The notes under the pieces are model-generated. The model saw only the letters and a program-made list of their open reading frames with translations. It had not been told where the DNA came from and did no database searches. Both the position numbers and the translations under genes were made by a program. This document shows, in pieces, positions 18,053 to 24,217 of a DNA stretch of 64,000 bases. The DNA comes from an uncultured Latescibacterota bacterium (GTDB lineage: Bacteria > Latescibacterota > UBA2968), in NCBI GenBank assembly GCA_951812755.1, contig OX638329.1, positions 4,348,522 through 4,412,521 on the forward strand, written 5' to 3'. Numbering within the stretch: position 1 is the stretch's first letter; every line of letters starts with the position of its first letter.

Positions 18053-19318
18053 ATGGAACAGAGACCGAATATTCTTCTGATTACGACCGACCAGCATAGC
18101 GCGGAAGCCCTTGGACATCTGGGGTGCAATGACGTGAAAACACCCGGTATGGACCGACTTGCAGCAAGAGGAATCAGCTTTGCAAAGTCCTATAGCGCGA
18201 ATCCAGTCTGCTGTCCGGCGCGTGCGAGCTGGTTTACCGGACGCCACACCCCCGAAAACGGAGTCGTGGCCAATGGTTCCAACATGGTTCCATCGATGCC
18301 GGACCTGGGACAATGGCTGAACAAAAATGATTACAACGCCTACTACAGCGGGAAATGGCATATTCCCGGCAGAGATGTTGCACAGAGTTTCCACTATATA
18401 TGCCCGGACCCTCGGAATACGGCTGAGACCGGAGACATTGCTTCGACCCGCAGTGCAATCGGATTTCTCCAGAACTACCAGGAGAAAGAACCCTTCTTCC
18501 TGTCGGTCGGGCTCTTAAATCCGCACGATATCTGCTCCTTCGTACTGACGCATACGATGTACGATGGGGAAATGCCGTTCCCCGAGATTGACGACCTTCC
18601 TCCACTGCCCCCCAATTTCGAGACAGACATGGCAGAGCCAGAAAAAATCAGAAGCTCCCGGAATCAGAAACTGGCAGATCGAGGCGAAGAATCGGGCATG
18701 GAAAAGTGGGAAGAGAAACTCTACCGTTACTATATCTGGACCTACTACCGCTACATTGAAAAGGTGGATGGGCAGATTGGCCTGATCCTGGATGCGCTCG
18801 AGAATTCAGCATTTAAGGACAATACGGTCGTAATCCTTACGTCCGACCATGGAGACGGGCATCTTCGACACAAGATGGTTTTTAAGAGCTTTTTATACGA
18901 TGAGGCCGCGCGGGTACCCTTTATCATAAGCTGGCCCGGTCACATCGAAGAACAGGTAATAGACCAGGATCATCTCGTATCGGGCGTAGATGTATTTCCG
19001 ACAGTTTGTGACTATGCCGGGATCTCGCCGCCCCCTATGATGCGGGGATACAGCCTGCGTGCGATTGCTGAGGGGAAGAATCCAGATTGGCGGGATTTTG
19101 TGATAGCACACGCCACCGGGGGCGGTAAAATGCTCCGCACCAACACACATAAGCTCATTACCTATGAGGGTGATCCAGTAATCCAGCTCTTCGATATGGA
19201 AGCGGATCCCTGGGAAACCAGGAACCTGGCGGAAACGCCCGAACCGAGGGCATTGGCAAGTGAAATGCAGGAATCTCTGACTGCGTTTGAGAGTAACTTC
19301 GAGTTGGCGGATGCCTGA
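18053..19318 (+). CDS. Sulfatase, formylglycine type (3)
   Basis: A 421-residue sulfatase. NILLITTDQH begins the metal site, C53-C-P-A-R57 is the maturation motif (an unusual Cys-Cys pair, only the first being the expected formylglycine), and YSGKWHIPG and LTSDHGDGHLRHK follow. Shared operon with the preceding unknown gene and, after 29 bases, the next sulfatase. No signal peptide. Substrate undetermined. Confidence 0.92.
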   Translation: MEQRPNILLITTDQHSAEALGHLGCNDVKTPGMDRLAARGISFAKSYSANPVCCPARASWFTGRHTPENGVVANGSNMVPSMPDLGQWLNKNDYNAYYSGKWHIPGRDVAQSFHYICPDPRNTAETGDIASTRSAIGFLQNYQEKEPFFLSVGLLNPHDICSFVLTHTMYDGEMPFPEIDDLPPLPPNFETDMAEPEKIRSSRNQKLADRGEESGMEKWEEKLYRYYIWTYYRYIEKVDGQIGLILDALENSAFKDNTVVILTSDHGDGHLRHKMVFKSFLYDEAARVPFIISWPGHIEEQVIDQDHLVSGVDVFPTVCDYAGISPPPMMRGYSLRAIAEGKNPDWRDFVIAHATGGGKMLRTNTHKLITYEGDPVIQLFDMEADPWETRNLAETPEPRALASEMQESLTAFESNFELADA

Positions 19319-19347
19319 ATATCCCTTAATTGAAAGGAGATTTATTG

Positions 19348-20640
19348 ATGAATGTACTTGTTTTGATGAGCGATCATCACAGATTTGATGCGTTGGGGTG
19401 TCTGGGGAATCCACTGGCACATACGCCCAATCTGGATCGTCTGGCTGAAATGAGTGTGCGATTTGACCAGTGTTATACACAGTCGCCTGTATGTTCGCCA
19501 GCGCGGCACAGTTTGGCAACCGGTCAATATGTCCATGCACATGGCGTTTTTACCAATAACTCAATGCCTTATCCGGAGATGTTCACGATTGCCCACGCTG
19601 TGCAACCCTTGAATTATCGTCGATTTCATCTGGGCCATATGCACTGGAAAGATCCCGATGTGGACAATGGCTATGAGCCAGAAATTACACAACAGATGTG
19701 GCGCGAGACAATGCCTGAGAATATGCTGGCCCGATACGATTGGGAAAATGAGGGTGTATTGCGGCGATCATCTGGCGGGCCAAGTCCGCGAAGTCGGGAG
19801 CAGTATTGGGGATATCATGTGGCGACGGAGTCGATTCGACAAATTGAAGAGGCTGTCAGTAAAGGGGAGAAATTTCTGTCCTGGACGAGTTTTACGGAGC
19901 CTCATCCCCCGTTTTATCCACCCAAAGAGATTTATGAAAAGATCGATCAGTCAAAGATCGAATTACCAGAACAAGCACCTGCTGATGCGCCCCTGCCCCA
20001 CAGTGATATTTTGAGAAAACGGAAAGAGTGGGAACACTTGACACCTGTGGAACTGCGGCAGGTGATTGCTGGATATTACGGGATGATTGAGCTTGTGGAT
20101 GGGTATTGTGGAATGGTTTTAGATGCGTTGGATCGATTGGGGATCAGGGACGAGACTATTGTGATTTGGACAGCAGATCACGGCGATCAGATGTGGGAGC
20201 ATGAGATGTTTTTGAAGTTTAATATGCGAGAGGCTTCGGTGCATGTGCCGTTGTTGATTTCTGATCCAGGAATGCAAGCAGGGGTACGGAAGGAACTGGT
20301 AGAACATATTGATTTGTTTCCGACGATTTGTGATCTGATTGGGGCTGAGGTTCCCAATTCTGTTCATGGACGTTCGTTGAAACCGTTGCTGGATGGAGAG
20401 CCGCCCCCTGATGATTGGCGGGATGCGGTATTCAGTCAGATTGGTGATACTCAGATGATCCGGACAGAGACGGAAAAGTTGAATGTATATCAGGATGAGG
20501 CAGGAGAGTATTATGATTTGGCGAAGGATCCGAAGGAGTTTTATAATCGGATTGAGGATGAAAGATATCAAGAACGCGTGGGCGTGTTGTTTGAACGAGT
20601 GAAGGCGTGGGAGAGCGCGTATGGGCGTGATAGCGGTTAG
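19348..20640 (+). CDS. Sulfatase, formylglycine type (4)
   Basis: A 430-residue sulfatase. The start is set at ATG 19348, preceded by GAAAGGAG; an upstream in-frame TTG lies inside the ribosome site. NVLVLMSDHHRFDALGC, maturation motif C49-S-P-A-R53, WTADHGDQMWEHEM and the final YYDLAKDP segment are all present. Its DNA is visibly richer in A/T at third positions than the sulfatases before it, hinting at separate acquisition. No signal peptide. Confidence 0.9.
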   Translation: MNVLVLMSDHHRFDALGCLGNPLAHTPNLDRLAEMSVRFDQCYTQSPVCSPARHSLATGQYVHAHGVFTNNSMPYPEMFTIAHAVQPLNYRRFHLGHMHWKDPDVDNGYEPEITQQMWRETMPENMLARYDWENEGVLRRSSGGPSPRSREQYWGYHVATESIRQIEEAVSKGEKFLSWTSFTEPHPPFYPPKEIYEKIDQSKIELPEQAPADAPLPHSDILRKRKEWEHLTPVELRQVIAGYYGMIELVDGYCGMVLDALDRLGIRDETIVIWTADHGDQMWEHEMFLKFNMREASVHVPLLISDPGMQAGVRKELVEHIDLFPTICDLIGAEVPNSVHGRSLKPLLDGEPPPDDWRDAVFSQIGDTQMIRTETEKLNVYQDEAGEYYDLAKDPKEFYNRIEDERYQERVGVLFERVKAWESAYGRDSG

Positions 20641-22429: not shown

Positions 22430-22458
22430 GCCCACTGCCCTAAATGGTAGTGGGCTTT
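22430..22458 (+). terminator. Rho-independent-type terminator
   Basis: GCCCACTGCC at 22430-22439 pairs with GGTAGTGGGC at 22446-22455 (ten base pairs including one G-T), with a six-base loop, followed by TTT and a second T run a few bases later. It separates the methyltransferase gene from the sigma-factor gene. Confidence 0.7.
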
Positions 22459-22540
22459 ACAATTTTGTACACCACTATCTTATTCGTGCCCTCTAATATA
22501 TGAAAGCGTCACCTGGAATTGAATTTCGGAAGCCTGTCAA

Positions 22541-24217
22541 ATGAGTCAATCTGATAACGATACGGTTCTTATTCAAAAATCTGTGCAAGGTGATCGGCAA
22601 GCATTTAGTGAGTTGGTTGACAGGTATGGTTCTCTGTTGCTTCAAACAGCTTATCGTTTGACAAGAAACTGGGATGATGCTCGGGATATAGTTCAGGAGG
22701 CGTTACTATATGCACACGCCTCATTGGATAGTCTAAGGGATCCACAGCGTTTTCTTCCCTGGGTTCGAGCCATTATTTTTCGAACATATCAAGGCCACCA
22801 GAAAAAGCAGATGCGACGCACAGAATTATTGAATTTCTATATCTCCTCCGAAGGCAATGATCCCTCAGTTTCTGCACACTCCGTGCTTCCAGATCAATAT
22901 TTATATCAGAAAGAACTGGCCTCTCTACTCCATCATTCCCTTCAATTATTGACCGAGCGCAACAGGCGCATTGTTGAATTGTTCTATCTTGAAGATTGGC
23001 CAATTAGAAAGATCAGTGACTTTCTTAAACTTTCAACAGATACAATAAAAAACCAACTGCGCAACGCCCGCATTCAAATGAGAAAGGAGATATTAGGAAT
23101 GCAAACACTGAATCCAATGCCGCGATTAAAACCGCAGCGCATTGCCCGTTTCAGAATCTCAGGGAGTTTTTCTGGTGATTCTTCCAACCCGTTTGAGTTA
23201 AATAATACCCTGTTGTATCAGCGCATACTGACAGCCTGTCGAAAAACGCCTCTTACGCCATTTGAATTAGCAAAGCAAATCGATGCAGATGAAGCTTATG
23301 TTGTAGATGCTTTGTTATCGTTGCTTAAAATGGAGATTATTGCAGAAGCAGAACCCAACCATTATGTGGCAAATTTCTTTTTTCCAACAGTTTCAGATGA
23401 TCAAGTCTTTTTAGAACGATGCCAGCCATATGTAAAAAAAGTGACTCAAGAGTTACAAAAAAATCTGGCTACTATCAAGAAGACAATTGCTGACTGTTCT
23501 TTTTCTCAATGGGGATTCGGTTGGAATGAAATACACTGGATTGTTCTGTATGAATGGTTGCCTCAGCCTCCAATTCCAGGCCAACCACAACCACTATCTG
23601 CAAAAGAAATAAATCGATTTATAGGACCGCTTAGACCCGATGGTGGACGCTGGTATTTATCAGGCCATGACTTGACTTCCCCTTTTTCGGAAAGAATAGG
23701 CAGTCGTGCTTTCACCGAGTATGATGGCTCGGGAAGACATTATAAAGTGGGTTGGTCTGGTTCGGGGAGGTTCATGACAGAGAAGGAATTTGCGATAGCA
23801 GTGAAGTTAGCTAATGGTCCAAAAACTGAAACAGAGGTAATGGCGGACTTGTCCAATGAAATGGGAAGGGAAGTGCTCGCGGAGTGTATGAATGCGGGCT
23901 TCATAACGCGAATTGATGGGTGCTACCACCTCAGATTTCCGTTTGTTTCGCCAGAGGATGAAAAAAAAATTGCAGATGCCTTACGTCCTGTATCTACTGC
24001 GTTGACTGAAGCTCGAGATGAATGGCAGGTCGAGGCACCGAATGTAGCGGAGGAATTGGGATTCGACTGGCTTATAGAGAATCAACCAGACTCTTTAATA
24101 GCCGGAATTGAGGGACTTTGGGGGTTGAATCAGCAATTGCAAATGGAGGGGCTTATTCATCTCCCACCAGATGATAATCCCTGCTGGGCTATGTGGGCAA
24201 AAGTCTGGAAAGCCTGA
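22541..24217 (+). CDS. ECF-type RNA polymerase sigma factor with long winged-helix-like C-terminal extension
   Basis: A 558-residue protein. Residues 15-90 are sigma region 2 (AFSELVDRYGSLLLQTAYRL, then DDARDIVQEAL) and residues 130-185 are region 4 (LTERNRRIVELFYLEDWPIR, then STDTIKNQLRNAR). ECF sigma factors are normally about 180-220 residues. Here a further 360 residues follow, with two winged-helix-like segments (about 226-285 and 425-495) and an aromatic-rich middle. No anti-sigma gene is adjacent and a terminator lies upstream, so the extension may itself be the sensor or inhibitor. That role is inference. Confidence 0.85.
   Translation: MSQSDNDTVLIQKSVQGDRQAFSELVDRYGSLLLQTAYRLTRNWDDARDIVQEALLYAHASLDSLRDPQRFLPWVRAIIFRTYQGHQKKQMRRTELLNFYISSEGNDPSVSAHSVLPDQYLYQKELASLLHHSLQLLTERNRRIVELFYLEDWPIRKISDFLKLSTDTIKNQLRNARIQMRKEILGMQTLNPMPRLKPQRIARFRISGSFSGDSSNPFELNNTLLYQRILTACRKTPLTPFELAKQIDADEAYVVDALLSLLKMEIIAEAEPNHYVANFFFPTVSDDQVFLERCQPYVKKVTQELQKNLATIKKTIADCSFSQWGFGWNEIHWIVLYEWLPQPPIPGQPQPLSAKEINRFIGPLRPDGGRWYLSGHDLTSPFSERIGSRAFTEYDGSGRHYKVGWSGSGRFMTEKEFAIAVKLANGPKTETEVMADLSNEMGREVLAECMNAGFITRIDGCYHLRFPFVSPEDEKKIADALRPVSTALTEARDEWQVEAPNVAEELGFDWLIENQPDSLIAGIEGLWGLNQQLQMEGLIHLPPDDNPCWAMWAKVWKA

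Follow-up and report, generated by a model that had tools for sequence, protein, structure and literature searches.

How is an ECF sigma factor controlled when its chain continues for some 370 residues beyond the sigma domains and no gene for an anti-sigma factor lies beside its own? This question is raised by a gene of an uncultured Latescibacterota bacterium that is located in the 64,000-nucleotide stretch of DNA analysed here (referred to as the window). The source genome consists of a single contig of 6.53 Mb and encodes about 16 factors of ECF size, four of which are long-tailed. An earlier note on this DNA, made from the letters alone, had proposed an open reading frame of 558 codons at 22541-24217 whose sigma regions 2 and 4 end near residue 185. 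We found one intact gene at these coordinates, and Pfam places both regions within the proposed limits:

22541..24217, + strand: ECF sigma factor gene with a long C-terminal tail, 558 aa (open frame; full-length orthologues)
22613..22816, + strand: sigma region 2, residues 25-92 (PF04542, Sigma70_r2, 5.7e-9, above cut-off)
22928..23086, + strand: sigma region 4, residues 130-182 (PF08281, Sigma70_r4_2, and PF04545, Sigma70_r4, above cut-off)

The 558-residue protein scores 81.2 bits against the ECF superfamily model TIGR02937 (cut-off 42.9) and has the layout of a group IV factor, namely regions 2 and 4 connected by a short linker, without region 3. Since no Pfam family reached its cut-off past residue 185 in a scan of the whole protein, the residues following this position represent a true extension. 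No membrane helix is predicted (maximum 19-residue hydropathy 1.33). The gene product is a genuine bacterial sigma factor that carries a soluble extension of about 370 residues.

Two congeners (L018 and L019) possess orthologues of exactly 558 residues with about 90% identity, the orthologue of a third congener (L020; likewise ~90% identical) is cut by a contig end, and a bacterium of the same class but of another family (L022) encodes a 568-residue homologue without stops whose tail is 26% identical. The extension of ~370 residues after region 4 is hence conserved at full length in several species. GFxW (residues 325-328) and PLRPDGxRW (363-371) are among the tail stretches best kept at the 26% identity that separates the window protein from L022. 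When the window gene was compared with L018 and L019, dN/dS values of 0.17-0.22 were obtained for the tail and of 0.14-0.16 for the sigma part; against the contig-end-cut L020 gene, which offers fewer sites, the value for the tail was higher (0.35). Judged by these substitution rates, the purifying selection acting on the tail is similar to that acting on the sigma part.

These data bear on whether the long reading frame might be a gene-calling artefact, produced when a missed frameshift merged a sigma gene with a separate gene that follows it, or else a functionless gene in decay. In favor of such a reading, several relatives lack the gene or have lost its interior (see below), but the complete orthologues keep both the open frame and its length, the constraint on the tail equals that on the sigma part, and a homologous sigma-tail fusion is present in Clostridia. 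We consider it hardly credible. The frameshift that the earlier note had named as a possible refutation was looked for and not found: the full-length orthologues and the L022 homologue keep the frame, and because this frame is unbroken and both parts of the protein are under like purifying selection, there is neither a missed frameshift nor a fused second gene.

Two features precede the coding region:

22430..22455, + strand: 10-bp hairpin, then TTTACAATTTT; weak terminator or operator (kept in five genomes; absent from terminator-scan output)
22456..22540, + strand: conserved leader with TAATAT (22494-22499), presumed promoter (five-genome alignment)

The gene had been described as insulated by a terminator. 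This holds in so far as a conserved 10-bp hairpin precedes it, but this hairpin has a weak T tract and went unreported in the terminator scan. A promoter scan of the leader (22456-22540) revealed no sigma-70 consensus; TAATAT is the only conserved −10-like element. In L018 and L019 the DNA upstream of the hairpin is different, yet hairpin, leader and gene are kept; their joint preservation in five genomes, these two included, indicates that they act as a unit. Encoded in the neighborhood are a sulfatase, an EamA transporter, a methyltransferase, an isochorismatase-like protein, a DUF3841 protein, a GNAT protein and beta-lactamase-like proteins. Upstream, at 18053-20640 of the window, two sulfatase-like genes adjoin each other, the second recognized by Pfam and the first by sequence only. 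None of the seven neighboring genes scanned encodes an anti-sigma domain, in line with what had been claimed for this locus.

In two further congeners (G031, L171; G035, L172) the hairpin-leader-gene unit is absent, and an unrelated spacer of ~70 bp separates the methyltransferase and isochorismatase genes. In genome G030 (L025), a 1280-bp internal deletion has left only the ends of the gene, joined out of frame at a junction with only about 3 shared bases; a comparable internal deletion in genome G055 (L130) likewise left both gene ends and an out-of-frame junction. These are two independent deletions, although assembly error might account for them. Relatives with no gene, or with only a remnant of it, can dispense with its function; the sigma gene is accessory and has been lost repeatedly.

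The full-length AlphaFold2 model of the protein was poor (pLDDT 49.6), and no sigma-tail contacts were predicted. A model of the tail alone (residues 201-558; mean pLDDT 62.6, pTM 0.58), together with the conservation data, allowed the extension to be divided as follows:

23207..23371, + strand: winged-helix unit 1, residues 223-277 (tail-only model, block pLDDT ~75-94; weak ArsR/AdcR profile matches)
23390..23557, + strand: long helix of unit 1 and GFGW segment, residues 284-339 (tail-only model; GFxW kept in the 26%-identical homologue)
23600..23779, + strand: middle segment, residues 354-413, with PLRPDGxRW at 363-371 (conservation; low pLDDT, no confident fold)
23780..23932, + strand: winged-helix unit 2, residues 414-464 (tail-only model; unit 1/unit 2 profile match E 1.8e-6)
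23951..24214, + strand: long helix of unit 2 and C-terminal helices, residues 471-558 (tail-only model)

In this model, unit 1 comprises helices 223-232, 240-247 and 251-263 and strands 267-271 and 274-277, followed by a 34-residue helix (284-317) and then short helices. The corresponding elements of unit 2 are helices 414-424, 430-434 and 439-452 and strands 455-458 and 461-464 (block pLDDT ~60-77 for residues 414-464), after which a 35-residue helix (471-505) and short helices are again found. Equivalent elements of both units are offset by 187-191 residues, and model confidence is low between them, at about 340-410. The tail is thus predicted to consist of two units of one topology: winged helix, long helix, short helices. 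The earlier note had perceived two winged-helix-like segments and had proposed structure prediction as a check; the tail-only model supports such segments at 223-277 and 414-464. The repeat was not significant in a simple pairwise alignment of the tail halves or with a close-family-only profile, while profiles of unit 1 and unit 2 that included the Clostridia sequences matched with E 1.8e-6 (probability 89.8%); a plain HMM of unit 1 placed only one of five unit-2 sequences clearly above the decoys.

A fold search with the tail model returned the winged-helix proteins ZBP1 Z-alpha, IclR, MarR, IdeR and Sso10a, none at E <= 0.001, and the same search against viral models gave generic winged helices only, again none at E <= 0.001. 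The sequence profile of unit 1 matched ArsR and AdcR weakly, and the L022 protein yielded an ArsR HTH_5 match slightly below cut-off. Unit 1 shares its fold with the ArsR/AdcR regulators and with Sso10a, in which a long helix also follows the winged helix. It differs from them in that its recognition helix is acidic with invariant Tyr and Asp residues, in that it is fused to a sigma factor, and in that it stays below the cut-offs of the curated families.

When the tail was compared with the curated Pfam and NCBIfam models, none was reached at its cut-off. A SnoaL domain, a match to which had been named as a possible refutation, was not detected by the Pfam scan even with E values up to 10; nor were TPR repeats (E up to 10), which the same scan detected in the tails of other ECF factors, and the tail matches no catalytic family in Pfam or NCBIfam. 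A search of 386 sampled genomes, representing 312 genera, with the tail profile gave matches in Latescibacterota only; this sample may contain few or no Clostridia, and Spo0A was found in none of 32 genomes tested from it.

Beyond Latescibacterota, a collinear tail is carried by a sigma-70 family sigma factor (WP_013483710.1; 512 aa) encoded on plasmid pRUMAL02 of Ruminococcus albus 7. The first lead to this protein came from a composed query resembling Clostridia sigma tails, whose matches to the window tail were given no weight; the homology rests on profiles of real sequences. The profile of the Latescibacterota tails matched that of the R. albus tail and a related gut contig over 243 columns spanning both winged-helix units (hhalign probability 95.8%; E 6.7e-9, a value that applies to a single comparison), while 17 other Latescibacterota ECF tail groups, used as negative controls, gave probabilities of at most 0.6%. 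Like the window protein, the R. albus protein has an ECF sigma domain followed by a tail with both winged-helix units, but identity of the tails is only ~17%, and the C-terminal end and the middle segment differ. No anti-sigma factor is annotated beside its gene; the hypothetical protein encoded upstream has no Pfam domain. The gut contig (MT837116.1; L161) is unannotated, and its sigma part is absent as the contig ends. It is named 'Bacteriophage sp.' and comes from human faeces; the tail adjoins HydG/ThiH-type radical-SAM-like and MutS-like genes (assigned by eye), and the contig looks like bacterial chromosome rather than phage. No relatives of the tail were found in the viral contigs searched. 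A match on a Nocardia plasmid proved to be a false positive, and one on an Enterococcus plasmid had an E value of about 1.

Because the Latescibacterota and R. albus tail profiles match, the tail is an ECF module present in at least two phyla. The family is common to sigma factors of Latescibacterota and of Clostridia and appears to be undescribed; no description of a winged-helix-tailed ECF factor was found in the literature searched, which was mainly open-access and did not include the 2021 ECF classification, so that the protein may already fall into a named group.

In other ECF groups, a regulatory role of C-terminal extensions is established, and control is exerted through conformational change, partner binding or proteolysis (PMC8999054). 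The SnoaL-type factors (ECF41, such as SigJ; ECF56, ECF205, ECF294 and ECF295) resemble the window protein in having regions 2 and 4, a soluble C-terminal extension and no adjacent anti-sigma gene (PMC8999054), but the window tail lacks a SnoaL match and comprises ~370 instead of 120-150 residues. ECF42 factors also carry a long soluble extension, thought to work by protein contact (PMC8999054); theirs consists of TPR repeats, whereas the window tail has winged-helix units and no TPR match. Two further assignments were rejected: ECF48, ECF52 and ECF53, with their fused membrane anti-sigma factors, on account of the lack of a zinc-finger anti-sigma Pfam match and the low hydropathy reported above, and the CorE-like ECF238 group with its Cys-rich tail, since no CXC motif is present in linker residues 93-129 and the few tail cysteines are scattered. 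The design had been called unusual; as a fused-tail arrangement it is of a known type, and the apparent novelty lies in the tail family.

Do the winged helices contact DNA or protein? In sigma-promoter complexes, the segment after region 4 would sit near the DNA upstream of the −35 element. A tail in this position might bind this DNA through its tandem winged helices, so that a single chain would be sigma factor and upstream activator at once and its promoter specificity would be extended. In favor of this, the tail-only model gives both units the topology of a winged helix, and they are similar to ArsR, AdcR and further proteins of this fold that bind DNA. However, unit 1 carries a net negative charge in every member (−3 in the window protein, −6 in L022, −3 in R. 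albus and −2 in the partial gut contig sequence). Tyr253 and Asp256 of the recognition helix (tail alignment positions 53 and 56) are invariant in six of six aligned sequences, placing an Asp where DNA binders carry polar or basic residues; the metal-responsive repressor AdcR, a sequence match, has SQAAVTKAIKSLVK at the position of the recognition helix. We therefore regard DNA binding by the tail as unlikely. On the strength of its net acidic character, although charge is only an indirect indication, and of the Tyr and Asp residues kept in its recognition helix, protein contact by unit 1 seems likelier than DNA contact.

The tail might instead bind another protein as a scaffold or for targeting, or be an enzyme-like domain, and exert no control over sigma activity. 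Protein-interaction or enzyme-like domains do occur on many other ECF tails of this phylum, but the window tail matches no catalytic family, and those ECF C-terminal extensions that have been tested so far do affect sigma activity (PMC8999054); we hold this explanation to be rather improbable. In its anatomy the protein fits the class of ECF factors with extensions, as its tail is soluble and no anti-sigma gene lies next to its own; we therefore prefer, with somewhat better than even confidence, to explain it as a one-component sigma factor regulated by its fused tail. In such a one-component factor, the first 185 residues would act as a standard ECF sigma factor that binds the RNA polymerase core and recognizes promoters of its own, while the fused soluble tail, with its two winged-helix/long-helix units on either side of the conserved PLRPDGxRW segment, would be the regulatory module that replaces an anti-sigma factor. 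The winged helices may contact protein and in this way hold or present the sigma domains, and the sigma factor might be switched on or off when the tail senses a small molecule or a partner protein. The built-in sensor or inhibitory domain envisaged earlier agrees with a fused, conserved, non-SnoaL tail of two units without a neighboring anti-sigma gene; the sensing or inhibitory action itself is what we infer.

Long, unrelated tails are common on the ECF factors of Latescibacterota. Among the 150 ECF matches listed in a sigma-domain search across the phylum, ranked by similarity to the window sigma domain, 75 are located in stop-to-stop frames that span 330 residues or more, lengths that are upper bounds. 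BLAST sorted 58 tails longer than 80 residues into 20 groups; five of the 58 belong to the winged-helix tail family. Other sampled tails (L066-L130) comprise ankyrin, TPR, HATPase, GNAT, FliG_C, bifunctional-nuclease, HEAT, LRR, FG-GAP, DUF4159 and 3-keto-disaccharide hydrolase domains. An ankyrin-repeat tail (L106) has an additional ATP-synt_ab match, a HATPase_c tail is combined with TPR, and a bifunctional nuclease tail has a KH-like match.

In one ECF group, the tail corresponds to domains II and III of the beta sliding clamp (DnaN) and has a DnaN-like end, LMPMRM. Members are L004 (G000:C1:2056692, outside the window), L086, L090, L102, L118, L125 and L126, and L174-L196. The profile of these tails matches PDB clamps with E 1.8e-11, and each of 23 Latescibacterota genomes, which span four families, has a single copy of the fusion, whereas the remaining genomes of the sample have none. 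No description of a sigma-beta clamp fusion was found in the literature searched. The arrangement recalls phage T4 late transcription, in which a sigma-like protein works with the sliding clamp, and it is probably more surprising than the winged-helix tail.

We suggest tentatively, and at slightly less than even confidence, that Latescibacterota use the ECF sigma domain as a general one-component output module with about 20 interchangeable and mostly undescribed tails, so that environmental sensing in this phylum would rely for the most part on tailed sigma factors and not on anti-sigma pairs. Pfam and NCBIfam hold no model for the winged-helix tail, and proteins of this kind are consequently annotated merely as sigma factors. 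The case described here would extend the range of self-regulating ECF factors, which need no anti-sigma partner, by a winged-helix tail that probably contacts protein, and it draws attention to a phylum whose ECF sigma factors often bear long tails.
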